From contig NZ_CP084098.1 in assembly GCF_036345015.1 (NCBI RefSeq), positions 3,671,326 to 3,735,325 on the forward strand: DNA of 64,000 nt, read 5' to 3'. Below the pieces are notes generated by a model. It saw only the letters and a program-made list of their open reading frames with translations. It did no database searches and was not told the DNA's origin. A program made the translations under genes and the position numbers. Numbering within the stretch: the first letter of the stretch is position 1; the number at the start of each line of letters is the position of its first letter. This document shows positions 7,989 through 47,142 of the stretch, piece by piece. Source of the DNA: Cyanobacterium sp. Dongsha4. Its GTDB lineage: Bacteria; Cyanobacteriota; Cyanobacteriia; Cyanobacteriales; Cyanobacteriaceae.

Positions 7989-8088
7989 ATTTTTCACAGA
8001 TTTAATGATTTCGCACCAGTGGAAAAAGTCAACCTAAAACCAGAAACCTCTTTAAACCAAACATTCTGGGTTCAAAATGAAGTTGAAA

Positions 8089-9909
8089 TTATTTTTTCTG
8101 AGCAAAATAAGCAGTTAAAACTTTCTGCACAATGGGGCCTGCTGTTGAACCGCCCCCGCCTCCTGAATGCTCAACAAAAGCAACCACAACTATTTCAGGG
8201 TTATCATAAGGTGCAAATGCCCCAAACCAAGCATGAGATTTTCCCGGAGGTGCTTCGGCTGTACCACTTTTTCCAGCTACTGCCACCCCATCTACTGCCG
8301 CTTTACCCCCTGTACCACTCGTAACAACGGCTCTTAAACCTTCTCTGACTGTTTTTAAGGTTTCAGGTTTTAAATCTAGGGATTTGCGTCTTTCAAGGTA
8401 AGAAGGATCTCGATGCAGATGAGGTACTACAACATTGCCCCCATTAGCAGGAACAGCAAACATAACCGCCACTTGTAAGGGTGTTGCGAGGGTAAAACCT
8501 TGCCCAATAGACATATTAACGGTGTCGCCTACAGTCCACTCCCAATTAAATCTTTCCTTTTTCCATTCGTTATCTGCAATCAAACCGGGGGTATCTTCTT
8601 CTAATTCAATACCTGTTTTACTGCCAAAGCCGTATTTTCTTGCCCACTCAATTAGGGTTTCCCCTCCCACTCCGTTACCAATTTGTCCGAAAAAAGTATT
8701 ACTACTCCAAGCCATTGCTCGAACAAAACCCATGGGGCCAAATCCTGCTCGATTCCATTCCCCAAAAGCTGTGCCGCCAACTCTTAAATAAGCATAGGTA
8801 GGAAGAATTGTACTGGGTTTATATTTGCCTGATTCTAATCCCGCAGTGGCAGTTACAATTTTAAAAGTAGAAGCTGGGGGAAATCCTCGTAAACTACGAT
8901 TAATAAAAGGATTACCTTTTCCTTGTACTTCTTTCCATAATTGAGGAGTAATTTTTCCAGAGAAAATATTGGGGTCAAAACCGGGATAGCTAACCATAGC
9001 TAAAACACCGCCATCACGGGGATCAAGGGCAACAACTGCACCTTTGCGATCGCCTAATGCTTGTTCTGCCACTTTTTGTAAATCTAAATCAAGAGTTAAA
9101 GTAACATCATTTCCTGCTTTTGCTTCTTTTATCCCCAATTTACCTAAAACTTTTCCTGTTCCATCTCTTTCTAAAAGTATTCCTCCCCATTCTCCCCTTA
9201 AATCAGACTCAAAGGCTGACTCTGCTCCCATTTTACCGATGACATCTCCTAAACGATAACCCTGCTGTTTTCTCTCGGCTAGTTCTTCTGCATTAATTTC
9301 TCTGGTATATCCTAATACATGAGAACCATTTTTTCCATGAGGATAATATCTGATGGTATCGGTATCTACTTCTACTTCTGAGAGTAAATTACGGTTTTCT
9401 TCAATAGCTGTAATTTGTTGAGGAGTGAGATTACGGGCGATACGAACCAAGGTGGGAGAGTCGTAGTTTTCTTGTTCGAGGGTTTTTTGCAACTCTGTTT
9501 CAGAAATATTGAGGATTTGTGCTAATACAGAGCGAATTTCCGCCCAATTTTCTTGTTTTTGCACAATAGGCCATAAATAAGCAGAGTGGGATAAACGGGT
9601 TGCCCCTAATATTCTGCCTTTACGGTCATATAAATTACCTCTGACGGGAGGTTTAGGAATGATTTTAGTACGATTGTTTTCCGCTTTTTCTTGATATGTA
9701 TTCCCTTCTACTAATTGTAAATATGCTAACCGAGATGCGATCGCGCCAAAAAAGAAAAGGCTAATAAGCAACATGATAAATATGGGTTGATCCTTTTGCC
9801 CTACATTCAACCAAATTTTTTGCCGTTGATTACGAGTATCAGAGAAAGTAACTTTGCGACTTTTCAAGGAAGATTTTTTCGATTTTTTGATAATTTGGGT
9901 TAATTGCAT
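8089..9909 (-). CDS. mrdA: penicillin-binding protein 2 (elongasome transpeptidase)
   Basis: A class B PBP that cross-links peptidoglycan during cell elongation. A basic cytoplasmic N-terminus is followed by one membrane anchor (about 42-65), the dimerisation domain with PPVRGNLYDRKGRIL, and the transpeptidase domain. All three active-site motifs are present: STFK at 347-350, SSN at 402-404 and KSGT at 547-550. At 606 residues it has the normal length. It ends about 100 bp from the convergent ABC ATPase. In other bacteria the partner RodA is often next door; it is not here. Confidence 0.93.
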   Translation of the reverse strand: MQLTQIIKKSKKSSLKSRKVTFSDTRNQRQKIWLNVGQKDQPIFIMLLISLFFFGAIASRLAYLQLVEGNTYQEKAENNRTKIIPKPPVRGNLYDRKGRILGATRLSHSAYLWPIVQKQENWAEIRSVLAQILNISETELQKTLEQENYDSPTLVRIARNLTPQQITAIEENRNLLSEVEVDTDTIRYYPHGKNGSHVLGYTREINAEELAERKQQGYRLGDVIGKMGAESAFESDLRGEWGGILLERDGTGKVLGKLGIKEAKAGNDVTLTLDLDLQKVAEQALGDRKGAVVALDPRDGGVLAMVSYPGFDPNIFSGKITPQLWKEVQGKGNPFINRSLRGFPPASTFKIVTATAGLESGKYKPSTILPTYAYLRVGGTAFGEWNRAGFGPMGFVRAMAWSSNTFFGQIGNGVGGETLIEWARKYGFGSKTGIELEEDTPGLIADNEWKKERFNWEWTVGDTVNMSIGQGFTLATPLQVAVMFAVPANGGNVVVPHLHRDPSYLERRKSLDLKPETLKTVREGLRAVVTSGTGGKAAVDGVAVAGKSGTAEAPPGKSHAWFGAFAPYDNPEIVVVAFVEHSGGGGGSTAGPIVQKVLTAYFAQKK

Positions 9910-10122
9910 ATTATTTGAAATGGGGAAAAGTATTTAAAAGTTGCTGAAAAATTGGTGTCGTTGCGTTCTAGTTTATTCGGCGTTGGTGAATTAAGCTATG
10001 ATTTTCAGTTTAGATCGGGAATGGGGAATAGACAATGATAATAGTATTTTGATTGTTAGATATTTGTAGCAATTTAACAATATTTCATGTCATCATTAAG
10101 CCACCCCGTTTATTCTTCATTT

Positions 10123-10848
10123 TCAGTTTTCTTCGTCTTCCCATAAGCAAGAATTTTGTCGGATACTTCGATAATCTCCATTACCGATAATAAGATGATC
10201 CAAAATGGGAATACCAATTATATTTGCCGATTCCAATAATCGCTTAGTTAAGTTCAAATCCTCGATGGAAGGCTCTAAATTTCCCGAAGGATGATTATGA
10301 GCGATAATCATATTGGTGGCAGACTGTCGAATTGCTTCCCTGAATAGCTCACGAGGGTGAATTAAAGTTTCTGTTGCAATACCAATAGTAATAACCTGAG
10401 TGCTAATTAAACTATTTTTTGTGTCTAATAATAACACAGCAAAACGCTCTTGAGATTGCCACATTAATTCATGACTAAAAGCCGCCGCCGCCGCATTTGG
10501 ACTGTCGATAATAGCCCTAGCACAGGGGCGAAATTGAAATGCTCTTTTTCCTAATTCTACACCAGCAAGAATAGTTGTGGCTTTAGCAGGACCTATACCC
10601 TGAATCTCCATTAATTCTGTGGGAGAAATAGTACGTAACACATCCAAAGGATCTTGTTTATTTTGGCTAAGTTGATTCAAAATATATTGAGCCAATCCTA
10701 CCGCCGATAATTTGCCCTTTCCCTGCCCTGTGCCTAATAAAATAGCGATTAACTCCGCCGAGCTTAAATTCCTTGCTCCTAATTCTAATAATCGTTCTCT
10801 AGGGCGTTCACTTAGAGGTAAATCTGCGATTCTCAGATTATAAACCAT
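10123..10848 (-). CDS. radC: RadC-family JAB-domain protein
   Basis: 241 residues. The N-terminal helix-hairpin-helix region contains [10 protein letters not shown] (about 81-90), and the C-terminal JAB/MPN domain carries the metal site HNHPSG (184-189) with a downstream Asp (EDLNL). The family was named for a presumed role in DNA repair, but this was not confirmed in E. coli; its function remains uncertain and many copies sit on mobile elements. Here it lies among housekeeping genes as an apparent single-gene unit and has full length, so it is the ordinary chromosomal type. Confidence 0.9.
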
Positions 10849-10969
10849 GTTATTGTTACAAAATGAAATCTTGATCTTTATTGTAACCTCGTTTGTCGAT
10901 TTAAGATCTGGTTTCAGAGTTTTTAATTATTCACTATTCACCTCAACACCTTTGCCCTTTAATGACTTG

Positions 10970-12199
10970 TTAATTGCCACTGAATGCCTCTAAAGCTGAC
11001 TTAAGTGCGATCGCAGTGTGAGTCCAATGAGTTCCGCCCTGACAAAAAACAATATAAGGTTCACGTAAAGGACCATCAGCAGAAAATTCAGAAGTACTAC
11101 CATCTATAAAAGTACCTCCTGCCATAACCAAATTTGTATCATATCCTGGCATAGGTGCAGGTACAGGGTCTAAATATGAACCGATGGGGGAATTTTTTTG
11201 AATAGCACGGCAAAAAGCCACTAATTTATCAGGGCTACCGAGTTTAACTGCTTGAATAATATCTCGACGGGGAGTAAAAGGTAAAGGATTTACTTCATAG
11301 CCTAATTCAGAGAAAACATAGGCAATAAGGTGACTACTTTTCACTGCTTCGGCTACCATCTGAGGTGCGAGAAAAAACCCTTGAAATAAAAGGCGATTTT
11401 GCTCAAATGTTGCTCCTCCACTGCTACCAATACCGGGGGCTGTTAAACGACAACAGGCTTTTTCTACTAAGTCTTCTTTTCCTGCTACATATCCTCCTGC
11501 TGTAACGATTGTACCACCTGGATTTTTAATTAATGACCCTGCCATCAAATCAACTCCTACGGCGGTGGGTTCACTTTTTTCGATAAATTCTCCATAGCAA
11601 TTATCTACAAAGCAGACAGTATCGGGATTTTGTTTTTTTACTAACTCCACAATTCTGGCAATATCGGCAATAGAAAGACTTTGTCGCCAAGAATAACCAC
11701 AAGAGCGTTGAATTAAGACTAACTTGGTTTCTGGTTTGACGGCGGTGGCTAAACTTTCCCAATCAATGCCTCCCTCATCGCTTAAGGCTAATTCTCGATA
11801 TTTTACCCCCCATTCTTGTAGTGTACCTTGTCCCTCGCCCCGTACTCCAATAACCTCCTCTAAGGTATCGTAAGGATGTCCTGCTACTGCTAACATTTCG
11901 TCATTAGAACGTAATACCCCATAGAGACAAGATGCGATCGCATGAGTTCCCGAAACAATTTGTACTCTAACGGCGGCTTTTTCAGCTTCAAAAACTTGAG
12001 CAAAAATTTGGTCTAATACATCTCTACCTAAATCATCGTGACCATAACCGGTTACACTGGAAAAATGATGTACTCCCACTCGGTGATCTCGAAATGCTGT
12101 TAATATTTTGTTTAAATGATGTTTTACCTGTTGATCAATTTCTGCAAAGGTAGGTAATAGTTTTTCTTGGGCTGAATCAATCAATAAATCAATATTCAT
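10970..12199 (-). CDS. PLP-dependent lyase, methionine gamma-lyase/aluminium-resistance family
   Basis: 409 residues of a cysteine/methionine-metabolism type PLP protein of the family annotated as aluminium-resistance or methionine gamma-lyase-like (PF06838). Recognisable parts are the N-terminal GVGVHHFSSVTGYGHDD-like segment (shortened: HHFSSVTGYGHDD), the cofactor region VCFVDNCYGEF and the Schiff-base lysine in SLIKNPGG. The family is common in cyanobacteria and Firmicutes; its physiological substrate is not settled. It is transcribed away from nadA from a shared gap of about 130 bp. Confidence 0.85.
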   Translation of the reverse strand: MNIDLLIDSAQEKLLPTFAEIDQQVKHHLNKILTAFRDHRVGVHHFSSVTGYGHDDLGRDVLDQIFAQVFEAEKAAVRVQIVSGTHAIASCLYGVLRSNDEMLAVAGHPYDTLEEVIGVRGEGQGTLQEWGVKYRELALSDEGGIDWESLATAVKPETKLVLIQRSCGYSWRQSLSIADIARIVELVKKQNPDTVCFVDNCYGEFIEKSEPTAVGVDLMAGSLIKNPGGTIVTAGGYVAGKEDLVEKACCRLTAPGIGSSGGATFEQNRLLFQGFFLAPQMVAEAVKSSHLIAYVFSELGYEVNPLPFTPRRDIIQAVKLGSPDKLVAFCRAIQKNSPIGSYLDPVPAPMPGYDTNLVMAGGTFIDGSTSEFSADGPLREPYIVFCQGGTHWTHTAIALKSALEAFSGN

Positions 12200-12270
12200 A
12201 CTGGATGTAAATGTTGTTTAATATTTGTCGTAGAATTCACGAATGGAAGCGTACCGCACCGATTGCACCT

Positions 12271-12276
12271 TATAAT
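12271..12276 (+). promoter_or_regulatory. candidate -10 element of nadA
   Basis: TATAAT lies 52 bases before the nadA start. I see no good -35 hexamer 16-18 bases upstream, so the promoter may need an activator or the match may be chance. Confidence 0.3.
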
Positions 12277-12327
12277 GAAGATAACTAAATATCTATAATT
12301 TATCAATTTAAGGGATAGGGATTCATC

Positions 12328-13284
12328 GTGTTTACAGCTACCACTTTACCGAACTCAAACTTGCCTCAAGACTTGTTTGGTGCGATCGCATCTTTGAAAA
12401 AAGAATTAAACGCCGTTATCCTTGCTCACTATTACCAAGAAGGAGATATTCAAGATATAGCGGACTACATAGGAGACTCTTTGGGGCTATCTCAACAAGC
12501 CGCCTCAACTTCTGCTGATGTTATTTTATTTGCAGGAGTCCACTTCATGGCAGAGACGGCAAAAATTCTTAACCCCGATAAATTAGTACTTTTACCAGAC
12601 TTAGAAGCCGGTTGTTCTTTAGCTGACAGTTGCCCCCCCGATAAATTTGCTCAATTCAAAGCACAACATCCAGACCATATCGTTATATCTTATATAAACT
12701 GTACCGCCGAAATTAAAGCCTTAAGTGATATTATTTGCACCAGTTCCAATGCCGTTAAAATTGTACAACAAATCCCCCCAGAACAACCAATAATCTTTGC
12801 ACCCGATCGCAATTTGGGTCGTTATGTGATGGAACAAACAGGGAGAGAAATGGTATTGTGGGATGGTAGTTGTATTGTTCATGAAACCTTTTCCGAGAAA
12901 AAAATTGTTCAACTAAAAATAGAACATCCCCAAGCAGAAATTCTTGCTCACCCTGAATGTGAAACTCCTGTTTTACGCCATGCAGACTATATAGGTTCAA
13001 CAACGGCATTATTAAAATATGCCATGGAAAGTAATTCCTCCGAATTCATTATAGCCACCGAACCCGGAATTATTCATCAAATGCAAAAAGATGCACCCCA
13101 TAAATCTTTTATTCCCGCCCCTCCAGAAAATAACTGTAATTGCAACGAATGCCCTTACATGAGATTAAATACCTTAGAAAAAGTTTATTTAGCTCTAAAA
13201 AATCGTACTCCTAGTATTGAAATTCCCCCTAGCATTCAGCAAAAAGCCTTACAACCTATTCAGAGAATGTTGGCTATGTCTTAA
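12328..13284 (+). CDS. nadA: quinolinate synthase
   Basis: NadA condenses iminoaspartate with dihydroxyacetone phosphate to quinolinate in de novo NAD synthesis, using a [4Fe-4S] cluster. Family landmarks are [20 protein letters not shown] at the N-terminus, the cluster cysteines in [10 protein letters not shown] (Cys96 region), WDGSCIVHE (Cys182) and NECPYM (Cys275), and the HPEC motif (208-211). The length of 318 fits. A 3' truncated copy of the same gene lies 1.2 kb downstream. Divergent from the PLP lyase. Confidence 0.96.
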
Positions 13285-13535
13285 TATTAAGTACTAAAGC
13301 AAAATAGATTGTATATTTTAAAATTAATGAAAATAACCCATAATCTTTGTTGCCTCTTGTATTTCATGAAGTAAATACATAATTAATTTTGCCTACCTAC
13401 TTAAGAGTGCGATCGAGCTTCTATATGAATGTTGAATTGCAACTCGTAGTATAGAGGCGAAGAAATACATTTTATGTAGTTACGTATTTATACTGGGAAT
13501 AAAAATTCGATTCTCTTTTCCCTAATTACTGCAAG

Positions 13536-14429
13536 ATGTCTATTGTTAAATTTGTTATAATCCAAGGAAATTTTTGGTTTACTTATAAAATAATGATATA
13601 TTCAGAAATACTAAAACAAAAATTATTAATCACTTTTTTAGGTGAAAAACTATTAAAAATAAGAAATTTTTACGAATTGTGGGAATGTTCTTGGAAAAAC
13701 CCAGAAAATTTACCAACATTAGTTAATGATCAAATATCATCCAAAATTCTTACTAAACTTTGTGAAAAAGATAAAGTTTTTATCGATGTAGGTGCTCATA
13801 TTGGTTCAATTATTTCCGCAGTTAAATCTTACAATTCTCAAATAGAAATAATAGGCATTGAAGCAATTCCCGAAAAAGTAATAAAATTAAGAAAAGCATT
13901 TCCCTCTGTGGAAATTTATGAATGTGCAGTAGGAGATCGTGAGGGAGAAGTTTGTTTTTATATTAATACCCTAAAATCTGGTTATAGTTCTTTAGGAAGA
14001 AAAAAAGATCCCAGAAATCAAGAAGAAATAAAAGAAATAAAAGTTCAGTTAAAAACTTTAGATAATTTAATTCCTTCAGATAAAAAAGTTGGAGTCATAA
14101 AAATAGATACTGAAGGAGCTGAATTGGGGGTGTTGAGGGGGGCGGTAAACTTAATATCAAGGAATAAACCTTTGATCATGTTTGAAAGTGGTCCCAATAA
14201 AAATGACCTTGGCTACACAAAAGAAGATATGTGGCTATTTTTTGAGAATATTAACTATCAGTTAATCATTCCTAATCGATTAGCTCATAATGGAGATTCT
14301 CTAACTTTAGAAGGATTTATTGAATCCCATTTATATCCTAGAAGAACTACTAACTATTTTGCCATACCCAGTGAAAAACGTGAGTTAGTTAAGAAATTAG
14401 CAAGAAATATTATGAATGTAAAAATTTAG
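13536..14429 (+). CDS. FkbM-family SAM-dependent methyltransferase
   Basis: 297 residues. The SAM-binding glycine loop is FIDVGAHIGS (about 82-91), with an acidic residue in IIGIEAIPE ending strand two, then VGDREGEV and KTLDNLI...VIKIDTEGAELGVLRG, which is the characteristic FkbM core. Such enzymes methylate sugars or polyketide/cell-surface components; the substrate is unknown. Start at ATG 13536; an internal ATG at 13593 is possible. The gene is AT-rich and sits between intact nadA and a nadA fragment, so it was probably acquired or moved there with the duplication (see findings). Confidence 0.85.
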   Translation: MSIVKFVIIQGNFWFTYKIMIYSEILKQKLLITFLGEKLLKIRNFYELWECSWKNPENLPTLVNDQISSKILTKLCEKDKVFIDVGAHIGSIISAVKSYNSQIEIIGIEAIPEKVIKLRKAFPSVEIYECAVGDREGEVCFYINTLKSGYSSLGRKKDPRNQEEIKEIKVQLKTLDNLIPSDKKVGVIKIDTEGAELGVLRGAVNLISRNKPLIMFESGPNKNDLGYTKEDMWLFFENINYQLIIPNRLAHNGDSLTLEGFIESHLYPRRTTNYFAIPSEKRELVKKLARNIMNVKI

Positions 14430-14498
14430 TCACCTCAGTTCGATATGAAATTTTATCGTTTTGTTAAGTCAAACATCCTATAAAAATGGATTTACCCC

Positions 14499-14893
14499 CA
14501 AGACTTGTTTGGTGCGACGCATCTTTGAAAAAAGAATTAAACGCCGTTATCCTTGCTCACCCTGAATGTGAAACTCCTGTTTTACGCCATGCAGACTATA
14601 TAGGTTCAACAACGGCATTATTAAAATATGCCATGGAAAGTAATTCCTCCGAATTTATTATAGCCACCGAACCCGGAATTATTCATCAAATGCAAAAAGA
14701 TGCACCCCATAAATCTTTTATTCCCGCCCCTCCAGAAAATAACTGTAATTGCAACGAATGCCCTTACATGAGATTAAATACCTTAGAAAAAGTTTATTTA
14801 GCTCTAAAAAATCGTACTCCTAGTATTGAAATTCCCCCTAGCATTCAGCAAAAAGCCTTACAACCTATTCAGAAAATGTTGGAAATGTCATAA
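14499..14893 (+). pseudogene. nadA: truncated duplicate of nadA
   Basis: This block is nearly identical to parts of the upstream nadA. It holds the bases encoding residues about 15-34 and then jumps to residue 209, continuing to the stop. The jump removes 522 bp (174 codons, in frame) between two copies of the 9-mer CTTGCTCAC found at 12421-12429 and 12943-12951 in the intact gene. In addition one T is lost inside the GCGATCGC site near the start, shifting the frame. A frame from ATG 14486 stays open (135 codons), but it lacks two of the three cluster cysteines and the substrate site, so it cannot be a working NadA. Only about five base differences from the parent, four in the last 20 bases, show a recent origin or ongoing gene conversion. 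Confidence 0.9.
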
Positions 14894-15051
14894 AAGAGAA
14901 TGTTATTTGAATTAGTAATTAACAATGAAGAAAAGGGCAAAAGGCAAGAGACAGTAGGCAAAGGCAATTAATAAAAGAATATACTCCTTGTCATTCTTTA
15001 CAAAACTTAATAGAATGGAAGTCATATCACTAAGTATAAATTCTTATTGTC

Positions 15052-16629
15052 ATGTTTAGTGCAGAATTTCCTTGGCTAACAGCCATCATTGCCTTACCTC
15101 TTATTGGTGCTTTTGCAATTCCCTTCATTCCCGATAAGTATGGAAAAAATATTAGAAATTATAGTTTGACTATTGCCTTAACAAATTTTTGTTTAATCAT
15201 TTACGGTTTTTGGCAAAATTATTCTATCTACGACACAAATTTTCAACTACAAGAATCCTATAGTTGGTTTCCGCAAATTGGTTTAACTTGGAGTTTAGGG
15301 GTTGATGGTTTATCCATGCCCCTAATTGTTTTATCTGGTTTAATCTCTACCCTTGCGATTCTGGCTTCTTGGCAAGTGGAAAAAAAATCGAAATTATATT
15401 TCTTCTTATTATTAGTTTTATATAGTGCGCAAATCGGTGTTTTTGCCGCTCAAGATTTATTATTATTCTTTATTATGTGGGAATTAGAGTTAGTTCCCGT
15501 TTATATTTTAATTTCTATATGGGGTGGGAAAAAACGTCTTTACGCCGCTACGAAATTCATTCTCTACACTGCCTTAGCTTCTATTTTTATCCTTGTGGCT
15601 GGTTTAGGAATGGCATTTTATGGAGATAATTTCACTCTCAATATGGCGGAATTGGGTATGAAAAATTATCCCATTACCTTAGAAGTATTAGCTTATGTGG
15701 GCTTTTTAATCGCCTTTGGTGTGAAGTTACCTATTTTTCCTTTTCATACATGGCTACCCGATGCGCATAGCGAAGCATCTGCTCCTGTTTCGATGATTTT
15801 GGCAGGGGTATTATTAAAAATGGGTGGTTATGGTTTAATTCGTTTCAATTTAGAAATGTTACCCGATGCCCATATCAAATTCGCTCCTTTATTAGTGATT
15901 TTAGGGGTAATTAACATTGTTTATGGTGCTTTTACCGCTTTTGCTCAAACTAATTTAAAACGTCGTCTTGCTTCTTCTTCTATCTCTCACATGGGTTTTG
16001 TGTTAGTAGGAATTGCCGCTTTTACCGATTTAGGCATGAATGGGGCGATGTTGCAAATGTTATCTCATGGTTTGATTGCGGCGGCGTTATTTTTCCTCTC
16101 TGGGGTGACTTATGAGCGCACTCACACTTTAATGATGGATGAAATGGGCGGTATGGCAAAATCCATGCCTAAGACTTTTGCTTTATTCACGGCCGCTTCT
16201 ATGGCTTCTTTAGCTTTGCCCGGGATGAGTGGTTTTGTTAGTGAATTGAGTGTGTTTTTGGGTTTTGCCCAAAGTGATGCTTATAGCTCAATATTTAAAG
16301 TTGTGGTAACGATATTAGCAGGGGTTGGTTTAATTTTAACTCCTATTTATCTACTGTCCATGTTAAGGGTTGTTTTCTACGGCAAAAATGATACTGGTTT
16401 AAAGTTAGATGGTTTTCAACTTGATGCTAAACCCCGTGAAATTTTTATTACCGTTTGTTTAATTGTACCCATAATTGCGATCGGACTTTATCCTAAATTA
16501 GCAACAGAAAGTTATGATTTAAAAACCGTACAAGTAGCGAGTAAAACTAGAGCTTCTTTAGAGGTAATTGTCAATCATTCTGTTGAGAATATTCCTGCTA
16601 ATTTTACCATTGCAGAGATTAATAATTAA
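15052..16629 (+). CDS. ndhD: NAD(P)H-quinone oxidoreductase subunit NdhD
   Basis: A 525-residue antiporter-like proton-channel subunit of cyanobacterial NDH-1, with about 14 membrane helices. Hallmarks are [18 protein letters not shown] with the conserved Glu in helix five, [21 protein letters not shown] with the key Lys and His, and [12 protein letters not shown]. The sequence and length fit the NdhD1-type used in respiration and cyclic electron flow rather than the CO2-uptake NdhD3/D4 types, but that assignment needs a tree. No ndhF adjoins; the gene stands alone with an AT-rich leader. Confidence 0.95.
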
Positions 16630-16755: not shown

Positions 16756-18237
16756 TTACTGGCGAAATTTTTTGATAATTTTAATAACTATTTCTTCTAT
16801 CCATAGAATTAGTTGATCTAGTTTTTCTAAAATTACTTCTAAAAAGTGTTTTTCATATTTAATTTCGATAACTTTTGCTTCAATTTCTACATTATTTTCT
16901 ATATCGAGATTTGTTTGATAATTTGAACTGTTTTGATTAATTAAGTTACTTGTTTTTCCTTGGCTTGTGGCTGGTATTTTATCAACATCACTATCACTAA
17001 TGTTAGTTAAAGATAGAAATTTGTCAGAATCTTTTTTGGCACTATCTTCTATTTTATTTTGTTGGTTTATCTCGAAAGATTCATGTTGATCAGGGATAAA
17101 TTGTAAGTTATTTTCTATATATAAACTGTCATTATCTCCATACAAATCTTCCCAAGATAACCAAGGTTGAGACATTTCTTCTCTGATTATAATTACATCT
17201 GATCCAGCTAGAATGTTTAAGTTGTCATTTTTGTTATCACTGCTAATCCTCGGATTTGATATTTGTTTATCTTTAGAAAAGAAATATTCGATCGCAGCTA
17301 AGATAATTAATTTTATCTGAAATGGATCATTGTTTCTACTTGAATTAATATTGATACTATTACTAATACTTGTTAATTGATTAATTATAAGATTAATAAT
17401 TTTGTTACTAATATCCTTAGCTTGAGGAATAATATTTATACTGGCTAAAGGAGCTTTTTTTTCTCCATTTAAAGATAGTAAGTTTGTGTCTTTTTTCCCC
17501 TTTAAAGATGATAAAGGTTTTTCTTGGTCATTAAGTGGAATTTGACTAACTTCAGCTTCAGTATTTCCATTTAAACTATTGTGAGCATTATTGTTTCCAA
17601 AAAAATAGTCTATTGCTGATTTAATAATATTAATTAGAGAAAGATTTTCTTGTTGATTCGTTATTTCTTCAGAAATATTATTTAATGTATTTTTATCCTC
17701 CTCATCTTGTTTTCTGACAATAACACTCTCAACTTGAGCAATGAATTTATCAATCCATATAATTAAAGTATTAGAATATTTTTTAAGCTCGTATTCTTGT
17801 ACAATAATCTTAATCAAAGAAACTATTTCTTCTTGTTTTTGAATGGGAATAATATCGTTTGATTTATTATTCCCCACAATAGCAACTATTTTTCTGTTGT
17901 TGATTTGACTGGCTAAACCTTGAAATTCATGAGTTAGTAATAGAGGAAAGTCTTTTTCTACAGTCATTTTTTCCGTCACGGTGACAATTAACTCATCACA
18001 ACGACTATAAGGTAAACTGGCGTTTGATTTTTTTTCTCCCGTAAAAACTTGGTTAATATTTGTTTTCCGCCACAACCAGACAAAAGGAAGTAAGATGTCT
18101 TGTAATCCCCCTTTTATGACATAACCCCATTCTCGAAATTTTGTATTAATTTGACTGTTAATCTTGATATAATTACGATTAACAAAGTTCAACAAACGGC
18201 TTTTATAGGGCTTAGGAGAAGTCGGGGGAAAAGACAT
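16756..18237 (-). CDS. large low-complexity protein with amphipathic helix repeats, unknown
   Basis: 493 residues, not recognised. The N-terminal 60 residues are basic and aromatic (KPYKSRLLNFVNRNY, WGYVIKGGLQDILLPFVWLW), suggesting membrane or surface association. The rest is rich in Asn, Ser, Asp, Ile and Lys and contains two similar helices, IIKSAIDYFFGNN and LIILAAIEYFFSKD, plus two others, LIIWIDKFIAQVE and LILWIEEIVIKII (the C-terminus). These look like repeated amphipathic segments joined by variable linkers. The base composition of the linkers is strongly AT-rich. It is flanked by unrelated genes; cyanobacterial lineage-restricted protein is my best description. Confidence 0.55.
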   Translation of the reverse strand: MSFPPTSPKPYKSRLLNFVNRNYIKINSQINTKFREWGYVIKGGLQDILLPFVWLWRKTNINQVFTGEKKSNASLPYSRCDELIVTVTEKMTVEKDFPLLLTHEFQGLASQINNRKIVAIVGNNKSNDIIPIQKQEEIVSLIKIIVQEYELKKYSNTLIIWIDKFIAQVESVIVRKQDEEDKNTLNNISEEITNQQENLSLINIIKSAIDYFFGNNNAHNSLNGNTEAEVSQIPLNDQEKPLSSLKGKKDTNLLSLNGEKKAPLASINIIPQAKDISNKIINLIINQLTSISNSININSSRNNDPFQIKLIILAAIEYFFSKDKQISNPRISSDNKNDNLNILAGSDVIIIREEMSQPWLSWEDLYGDNDSLYIENNLQFIPDQHESFEINQQNKIEDSAKKDSDKFLSLTNISDSDVDKIPATSQGKTSNLINQNSSNYQTNLDIENNVEIEAKVIEIKYEKHFLEVILEKLDQLILWIEEIVIKIIKKFRQ

Positions 18238-43032: not shown

Positions 43033-43131
43033 GATACAAAGGCTGAAAATATTATGTTTTTTCTGACGGATAGACAAAATCGTCAATTAGCTTTAGGGCT
43101 AACCCATGAAGAAGTAATAACAGCGATCGCG
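43033..43131 (+). pseudogene. proS: internal fragment of proS
   Basis: 33 codons encode a peptide closely similar to residues about 90-122 of the intact prolyl-tRNA synthetase at 45340 (shared [10 protein letters not shown] and [10 protein letters not shown]). The intact equivalent is 45610-45703. Many silent differences show the fragment is not a very recent copy or came from another strain. The homology ends exactly at a GCGATCGC octamer, where the first 38-bp repeat begins. Confidence 0.85.
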
Positions 43132-45339: not shown

Positions 45340-47142
45340 ATGCGTTTATCTTCCATGTTATTTGCCACTCTGCGTGAAGATCCTGCGGAGGCGGAAATTA
45401 AAAGTCATAAGTTATTATTGAGAGCAGGTTATATTCGTCGTATTGGTAGCGGTGTTTATAGTTATTTACCTTTGATGTGGCGAGTTTTGCAAAAGGTGAG
45501 TCAAATTGTGCGGGAAGAAATGAACGCTACAGGGGCACAAGAATGTTTATTACCCCAGATGCAACCTGCGGATTTATGGCAAGAATCAGGGCGTTGGGAT
45601 ACTTATACAAAAGCGGAAGGCATTATGTTTTCCCTTACAGATAGACAAAATCGTCAATTAGCTTTAGGACCTACCCACGAAGAAGTTATAACTGCGATCG
45701 CTCGTGATATGGTAAAATCCTATCGGCAATTACCTGTTCATTTATATCAAATTCAGACGAAATTTAGAGACGAAATTCGCCCCCGTTTCGGGTTGATGCG
45801 CGGTAGAGAGTTTATTATGAAAGATGGCTATTCTTTCCATACTTCCCCAGAATGCTTGAAAAAGACTTATAATGACATGGATCAAGCCTATAAAAACATC
45901 TTTACTCGTTGTGGCTTGAGTTTTCGCCCCGTAGAAGCGGATTCAGGTGCGATCGGCGGTTCTGGTTCTCAGGAATTCATGGTATTAGCCGAAGCTGGAG
46001 AGGATGAAATTCTCTACACCGAAGATGGTTTATACTCTGCCAACGTAGAAAAAGCCGTTTCTTTACCTGCGGATAAGGTAACATCCCCCTTTACTAGCTA
46101 TGAGAAAAAAGCTACTCCTAATACTGAAACTATCGAAAAAGTTTGTAAATTGTTAGAATGTTCTGCAACGAATATTGTTAAAAATGTTCTCTATCAAGCC
46201 GTCTATGATTCAGGAAAAACGGTCTTAATTTTAGTCAATATTAGGGGAGATCAAGATGTCAATGAAGTTAAATTAACCAATGAATTAGTAAAATTAGCCC
46301 CTAATTATACTGCTAATACTGTACTTAGTTTAACCGTTCCCGATGAGAATGCTCAACAAAAATGGGCAGAAAAACCTTTACCTTTAGGCTATATCGCCCC
46401 AGATTTAAGTGATGATTATATTGCTCAAAATAAAGACGTTGCAGGGGAATTTTTACGATTAGCAGATCAAACGGTAGTGGATTTAGAAAACTTTGTTACT
46501 GGTGCTAATGAAACAGGGTATCACGTTGTGGGAGCTAATTGGGGGCAACAATTCACCCTACCTAAGTTAACCGTTGACATTCGTAAAGCAAAAGTGGGCG
46601 ATCGCGCTTTACATAATCCCGAACAAACCTTACAAACCGCTAGAGGTATCGAAGTAGGGCATATTTTCCAACTAGGTACTAAATATTCTGAGGCAATGGG
46701 GGCAACCTACACCGCCGAAGACGGCACAGAAAAGCCTTTTGTCATGGGTTGTTATGGTATTGGGGTATCTCGTCTGGCACAGTCTGCCGTGGAACAATCC
46801 CACGATAAAGATGGTATAATCTGGCCAGTTGCGATCGCACCTTATCACGCTATAGTCGTTATTCCCAATATCACCGATGAACAACAGGTAAAAATTGCCG
46901 AGGAAATCTATCATAATCTGAATCAAGCAGGAGTAGAAACCCTCTTAGACGACAGAGACGAACGAGCAGGGGTAAAATTCAAAGATGCGGATTTGATTGG
47001 TATTCCCTATCGTATCGTAACAGGAAGATCTCTCAAAGATGGAAAAGTCGAGTTAGTGGAAAGAAGCACAAAAAACTCTCAAGATGTTCTTGTTGAGGAA
47101 ATCGTCAAAATAATATCAGAAATGATCAAGAATAACTCATAA
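45340..47142 (+). CDS. proS: prolyl-tRNA synthetase
   Basis: 600 residues of the bacterial class II ProRS with an editing insertion. Class II motif 2 is [18 protein letters not shown] and motif 3 [10 protein letters not shown]; the insertion (about residues 230-400) matches the bacterial type that hydrolyses Ala-tRNA(Pro). The anticodon-binding domain is C-terminal ([21 protein letters not shown], shortened). TATAAT lies 34 bases before the start. A decayed fragment of the same gene lies 2.3 kb upstream. Confidence 0.96.

Follow-up and report, generated by a model that had tools for sequence, protein, structure and literature searches.

An FkbM-family methyltransferase gene between nadA and a nadA remnant in Cyanobacterium sp. 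Dongsha4: a candidate insertion with long target duplication

In the genome of Cyanobacterium sp. Dongsha4 the quinolinate synthase gene nadA is followed by a foreign stretch carrying an FkbM-family methyltransferase gene, a nadA remnant, native DNA and ndhD (Table 1); the whole stretch of DNA analysed, 64 kb in length, is referred to as the window, and its coordinates are used throughout. On the 5' side of nadA the native order is kept, with a divergent neighbour gene at 10970-12199. Intact nadA, the FkbM gene and the remnant had already been named in a first-pass annotation of this DNA, and their presence is borne out by the ORFs and by matches to PF02445, PF05050 and TIGR01444. The nadA repeat within the window consists of 345 bp at 98.3% identity and 66 bp at 97%, and with E=1.1e-170 for the longer piece it is far beyond chance.

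Table 1. Features of the nadA/FkbM locus (window coordinates)
Feature	Coordinates	Strand	Evidence or remark
Intact nadA (quinolinate synthase), 318 aa	12328-13284	+	PF02445, E=1.2e-125
Inferred 921-bp target duplication, left copy (from codon 13 of nadA through its stop)	12364-13284	+	Limits from both remnant ends
Inserted stretch (X), about 1.2 kb, G+C 28.4%	13285-14495	+	
116-bp dispersed element with terminal inverted repeats (TAAGTA-n5-GCAAAAT ...)	13288-13403	+	
FkbM-family methyltransferase ORF	13536-14429	+	PF05050, E=3.5e-21; TIGR01444, E=3.5e-25; phrog_8156
FkbM gene with likelier start	13593-14429	+	Alignment with relatives fits 13593 better than 13536
nadA-like ORF over the remnant, 135 aa	14486-14893	+	PF02445, profile positions 181-295
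Remnant 5' piece (nadA 12364-12429 minus base 12386)	14496-14560	+	
Remnant 3' piece (nadA 12943-13284, 5 substitutions)	14552-14893	+	
Native downstream flank up to ndhD (15052-16629)	14894-15051	+	Window 14890-16629 against congener G014, 93%

The remnant is composed of two nadA pieces that are fused within a 9-bp direct repeat, CTTGCTCAC, which occurs twice in intact nadA (12421-12429 and 12943-12951) and once at the remnant joint (14552-14560). Between these repeats the right copy has lost 522 bp (174 codons), in frame, and a second deletion has removed a single base, the counterpart of nadA base 12386, within a GCGATCGC site. With both deletions undone the right copy would span 921 bp of nadA; today it is reduced to 398 bp. 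Both losses, the larger of them of the slippage type, came later than the duplication. The first-pass annotation had described a remnant of nearly the same sequence as nadA but had missed the two-piece structure and the 522-bp deletion. Its estimate of about five differences over about 390 bases is right for the 3' piece (5 in 342 bp); the 5' piece has a further substitution besides the 1-bp deletion. The annotation also overlooked the 116-bp inverted-repeat element that sits exactly at the left boundary of the insert. Its central reading, the gain of an accessory gene between a core gene and a partial copy with the core gene kept, agrees with the intact nadA beside the remnant. Homology upstream of the remnant start (14496) was considered and rejected: a hand alignment seemed transition-rich, but anchored extension did no better than shuffles (114-141 of 300 reach the score).

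Between nadA and the remnant ORF the FkbM gene is the sole ORF of at least 80 aa. No integrase gene was found among ORFs of this size within or beside the insert, and neither ORFs nor profile matches point to a restriction-modification gene in it. Site-specific integration at a gene 3' end was accordingly set aside, as the insert has no integrase and the repeat is far too long for an attachment site. The inserted stretch (query 13285-14485) matches its own genome and the congener G014 elsewhere solely via the repeat element in its first 119 bases; a plasmid collection held no DNA match to 13285-14500, and protein searches of plasmids and phages gave matches that were all below 60% identity, none spanning 80% of the query. 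It contains no GCGATCGC site, with fewer than one expected at the density of the window (47 in 64 kb). An inverted copy of the downstream flank inside the insert (77% of 22 nt) was taken as chance.

The 116-bp element begins 3 bases past the nadA stop codon and is missing behind the remnant; it therefore came with the insert or later. Its repeat-end pattern, which was derived from the same genomic copies that it then counted, has 13 matches in the genome, 10 on one strand and 3 on the other, compared with 1 for a reversed control; both ends are present in three copies. The element showed no target-site duplication. A role as terminator was rejected: the hairpin has z=-1.90, 9 of 200 shuffles fold equally well and no terminator-like site was found.

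The FkbM protein passes the family cut-offs of both PF05050 (76.5 bits, cut-off 22.7) and TIGR01444 (89.1 bits, cut-off 37.7), contains the SAM-binding-type motif FIDVGAHIG and gives a weak sequence match to the solved structure 2py6 (E=6.2e-5). Judging from its family, it is probably a methyltransferase acting on a sugar in a surface glycan or glycolipid. By the cut-offs and the motif it resembles the family (PF05050/TIGR01444/phrog_8156), but it belongs to a sparse orphan subfamily with a C-terminus of its own (…HLYPRRTTNYFAIP…). The G+C content of the gene is 28.9%, and 17.9% at third positions, against means of 34.9% and 25.2% for 46 window ORFs; these low values would agree with a foreign origin, though other window ORFs are equally AT-rich.

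The gene is rare. Among 15 family genomes, two of which are 63-67% complete, it was found at E<=1e-15 in its own genome only, and at E<=1e-20 it is present in 5 of 386 phylum genomes including its own, the others showing 51% (G133), 48% (G143) and, in two cases, 31-32% identity. Scanning of the contig collection, with one genome per species, gave no match with the single FkbM protein as query and 40 loci with an alignment as query; 12 of these are near full-length at 43-53% identity and come from Cyanobacteria, Proteobacteria in the wide sense and Planctomycetes. Viral contigs hold 30 loci, 5 of them near full-length (47-50% identity) on four contigs (L138-L142, with L139 and L141 sharing one). 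At L139 the FkbM relative lies near integrase, spanin and endolysin genes and is a probable cargo gene of a temperate phage. A tree of 18 rows left the window gene unplaced and paired one Planctomycetes row with one cyanobacterial row with full support.

None of the 18 other loci tested (12 of the 40 genome loci, 5 of the 30 viral loci and L052) has flanking repeats, although in six of the 18 (L101, L104, L138, L140, L141 and L142) the sequence stops a short way from the gene at one end. The FkbM gene was accordingly rejected as the carrier of the flanking-repeat signature. A neighbour common to the orphan FkbM genes was rejected as well. An all-against-all comparison of the neighbours at 17 loci yielded one pair involving the window, namely the ORF at 16756-18237 and the gene beside the FkbM gene of G133 (L052 4696-5781; 27%, E=7e-15). 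This ORF, at a distance of 2.3 kb past the FkbM gene, has neither a Pfam nor an NCBIfam name, and the pair was set aside because the ORF is present in 14 of the 15 family genomes. The other matches joined two Moorena loci to each other, phage loci to each other and, weakly, L100-L102/L103 and L099-L108.

The congener comparison, made with the one genome G014, shows the empty site. Window 10951-13282 aligns with it gap-free at 95.2%; its nadA is followed by ndhD, the matching blocks lie 297 bp apart, and there is neither an FkbM gene nor a remnant. The first-pass annotation had proposed to look in relatives for the two together or separately, and in this one close relative they are absent together. 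nadA was found in 15 of 15 family genomes, with two matches solely in the Dongsha4 genome, and in the 13 others the sequence around nadA (3.3 to 11 kb) contains neither ndhD nor other window neighbours and gives no guidance on the order. Given the nadA-ndhD order of G014 without insert or duplication, and no sign of the FkbM gene in the other 14 genomes of the family, both the insert and the duplication are derived. No genome with the FkbM gene here but no remnant, or the reverse, was found among the 15 family and 386 phylum genomes. An origin of the two in one event is a putative one.

The 297 bp of G014 are a repeat element (L025 6132-6428) that starts at the nadA stop codon and is unrelated to the window insert; it has 14 matches in G014 including itself and none in the Dongsha4 genome. 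The site at the nadA stop has taken insertions twice, once in each genome. The synteny block with G014 extends over window 8087-16629 and is rearranged outside both ends, the window from 16640 onward mapping 960 kb away in G014.

The relation of the two copies to G014 bears on the age of the duplication. Over the 342-bp 3' piece nadA differs from the remnant at 5 positions and from G014 at 18, and the remnant differs from G014 at 17. Of the differences that separate nadA from G014, 15 lie in the first 318 bp; 14 of these are common to the remnant and the other (13047) is private to the intact copy. On account of this sharing the duplication, or the last gene conversion, is much younger than the split from G014. 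Four-fold sites differing from G014 number 21 of 119 in nadA, 15 of 89 in radC, 26 of 182 in the gene at 10970-12199 and 51 of 214 in ndhD. The differences between the copies are unevenly spread: a single one falls within the first 318 bp and four within the final 24 bp (either-end permutation P=0.00035 for a feature picked after seeing the data). Such clustering points to a boundary of recombination or conversion at this edge more than to recency alone. The first-pass annotation had read the few differences as a sign of a recent event or conversion, which the shared interior differences uphold but the clustered 3' edge qualifies. By eye, the 3' end of intact nadA (…MLAMS) has an alanine codon that three relatives of genus g4 share, whereas glutamate stands here in G014 and others. 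A donor-derived end would agree with this, although only a few bases are involved.

The whole is best explained, in our judgement with middling confidence, by a one-event insertion with long target duplication, most likely via a circularised fragment and a single crossover. The incoming fragment would have consisted of a nadA 3' part, then the repeat element, then the FkbM gene, and its ends would have been joined into a circle with the joint at 14495/14496. This circle would have entered the chromosome by one homologous crossover within nadA, which would rebuild an intact left nadA, with the donor's last bases and the repeat element, and leave a 5'-truncated right copy with the native 3' end; the spare right copy would afterwards decay. 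Such a course is consistent with the outer boundaries, where the left flank with nadA and the remnant with the right flank each run into native DNA, with the empty nadA-ndhD order of G014 and with an insert that is rare and AT-rich. Counted in its support is also a putatively different origin of the left end of the insert and the last 24 bases of intact nadA, as indicated by the four of five copy differences that fall in these bases and by an element that directly adjoins the stop and does not recur behind the remnant. On the other hand, the FkbM gene itself does not bring the flanking-repeat signature, and unequal exchange between sister chromosomes would give the same anatomy, as would a tandem duplication into which the insert came later. 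The donor order nadA-element-FkbM was not found at the nadA loci of the 15 family genomes or among the FkbM matches of the 386 phylum genomes.

Single crossover of a circularised incoming fragment and unequal exchange between chromosome copies would be the likeliest routes, and the sequence alone fits both. The circle is slightly preferred, as no second homology is required for it and the duplicated length lies within the experimental range. Unequal exchange, possible but doubtful to our minds, would take place between two chromosome copies of a polyploid cell with the foreign DNA as a bridge, as in merodiploids made by transformation: one incoming end would pair with nadA and the other would join nadA codon 13 on another copy, with no circle. 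Streptococcus pneumoniae merodiploids are described as arising by such interchromatid integration (PMC3784515), polyploidy is reported to be common among cyanobacteria (PMC7690421), and a ComEC-type channel gene is present in the genome, but ComEC homologues score in 10 of 14 control genomes, Escherichia coli included, and thus lend weak support for competence. Moreover, the pneumococcal duplications are given as ~100-900 kb with repeats at both ends (PMC3784515), whereas the present locus has one joint without detectable homology.

Two steps, a tandem nadA duplication and the later arrival of the element and the FkbM gene between the copies with removal of the second copy's start, would be compatible with the sequence, and the nadA stop of G014, which also adjoins an insertion (the 297-bp element), indicates that the site takes insertions. 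This course is nevertheless unlikely: no trace is seen of the native downstream flank behind the left copy or of the region upstream of nadA ahead of the right copy, and the insert would need to fill the whole gap exactly. A similarly low rating is given to an old duplication whose copies were kept alike by gene conversion. The crowding of differences at the 3' edge is what would be seen where conversion tracts fade, but a junction of donor and native DNA at that edge gives the same pattern, and past the 5' edge of the remnant there is no significant homology of the kind that might linger at an old, decaying end.

As for the fate of the spare copy, it is very improbable that its 135-aa ORF is a working C-terminal NadA piece under selection. 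The frame is open across 135 codons and the 522-bp deletion keeps it, which would happen in one case out of three by chance; however, the first codons are in a shifted frame owing to the 1-bp deletion, about two thirds of the enzyme are missing, the ORF covering just the last 40% of the NadA profile, and its score of 140.8 bits is far under the NCBIfam NadA cut-off of 294 bits. Nor is there an excess of promoter-like sites at the remnant (7 against 9.4 expected). Taken together, the shifted start, the missing part, the score and the promoter count argue that the remnant is most likely a pseudogene without function. An assembly artefact is hardly credible. Near-identical repeats at a distance of 1.6 kb are a well-known source of assembly errors, but here each nadA copy has differences and a flank of its own, only one copy contains the deletion joint and the stretch lies inside a 4.25-Mb contig.

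Similar sites were sought in 864 kb of the genome (the window together with 40 sampled stretches of 20 kb, 800 kb in all) and, for comparison, in 400 kb of G014, as direct repeats of at least 55 bp, spaced by 150-8000 bp, of which one copy falls in an ORF of at least 120 aa; repeats within one gene, paralogue pairs and one repeat (L184; 80 bp, 76%), which on reading is a dispersed intergenic repeat, were set aside. Four loose candidates remained in the 864 kb, and the same search gave no site with gene, cassette and fragment in the 400 kb of G014. Besides nadA/FkbM, the first is proS, where YoeB/YefM-type and YafQ-type toxin-antitoxin genes lie between a proS fragment and intact proS (43034-43130 and 45605-45701). 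The first-pass annotation had drawn this parallel, and the fragment does exist; the likeness is loose, as the fragment is an internal one of 97 bp (codons 90-122) at 85%, lies 5' of the intact gene, ends in a GCGATCGC site, is much older and is not an end-to-end duplication. At L188 (main contig 2105700-2106720) an Eco57I-type restriction-modification gene is followed by a PemK-like toxin gene with its partner and a copy of the 3' end of the Eco57I-type gene (121-127 bp, 91%); no counterpart of L188 was found in G014, so that no empty state was seen there. The weak candidate L182 has a 66-bp piece of a histidine kinase gene (89%; L182 10892-10957 and 14971-15036, the second copy outside ORFs) at copies 4 kb apart, with a MerR-type regulator and other genes between. 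The order gene, cassette, 3'-end copy is found at nadA and L188 only among the four. That small transposase-free cassettes enter this genome repeatedly by one process, laying down partial copies of neighbouring genes, is a speculative proposal that we regard as rather improbable; if it were true, gene fragments beside cassettes would be scars by which uptake events could be counted.

At the nadA locus the gain of a gene without loss of another can still be read from the sequence, since the outer flanks, the ends of the duplicated unit and the element at the left edge can all be made out, as can the early stages in the decay of the spare copy. Should insertion with long target duplication prove common among polyploid cyanobacteria, such fragments could serve to count and date the uptake of cassettes that are small and without mobility genes of their own.

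The term insertion with long target duplication was introduced by Nobusato et al. 2000 for restriction-modification genes of Helicobacter pylori (PMC1643837, PMC3154945, PMC3031569). In the cases described, as here, genes are added without loss, direct copies of a long and variable target flank the insert, and the insert has no transposase or integrase. The insert of the present locus lies between direct target copies (an inferred unit of 921 bp, the right copy being 398 bp), and the empty site is represented by the single nadA of G014, one congener only, with another element at the same spot. The described cases concern restriction-modification genes in H. pylori and the present one a sugar-methyltransferase-type gene in a cyanobacterium, and unlike them its right copy is already short of 522 bp. 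We propose that it is the same kind of event, outside the restriction-modification set. A laboratory parallel is given by duplications that form alongside homology-facilitated illegitimate recombination in E. coli, where 56 of 60 clones selected for one-sided integration are reported to have had a partial target duplication instead, of 109-950 bp in 14 sequenced clones, which the authors attribute to a single crossover of a recircularised molecule (PMC3240628). Foreign DNA with a partial target duplication is common to both, and the inferred 921 bp fall within that range; the E. coli case is a laboratory construct on lacZ (PMC3240628) and the present one is natural. The S. pneumoniae merodiploids likewise combine a tandem duplication with incoming DNA and keep an intact target gene, but they are described as spanning ~100-900 kb between repeats (PMC3784515), in contrast to less than 1 kb and a joint without visible homology here. 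Set against these systems, the nadA/FkbM locus looks like a clean new example of a way of gaining genes that is known but poorly explained.
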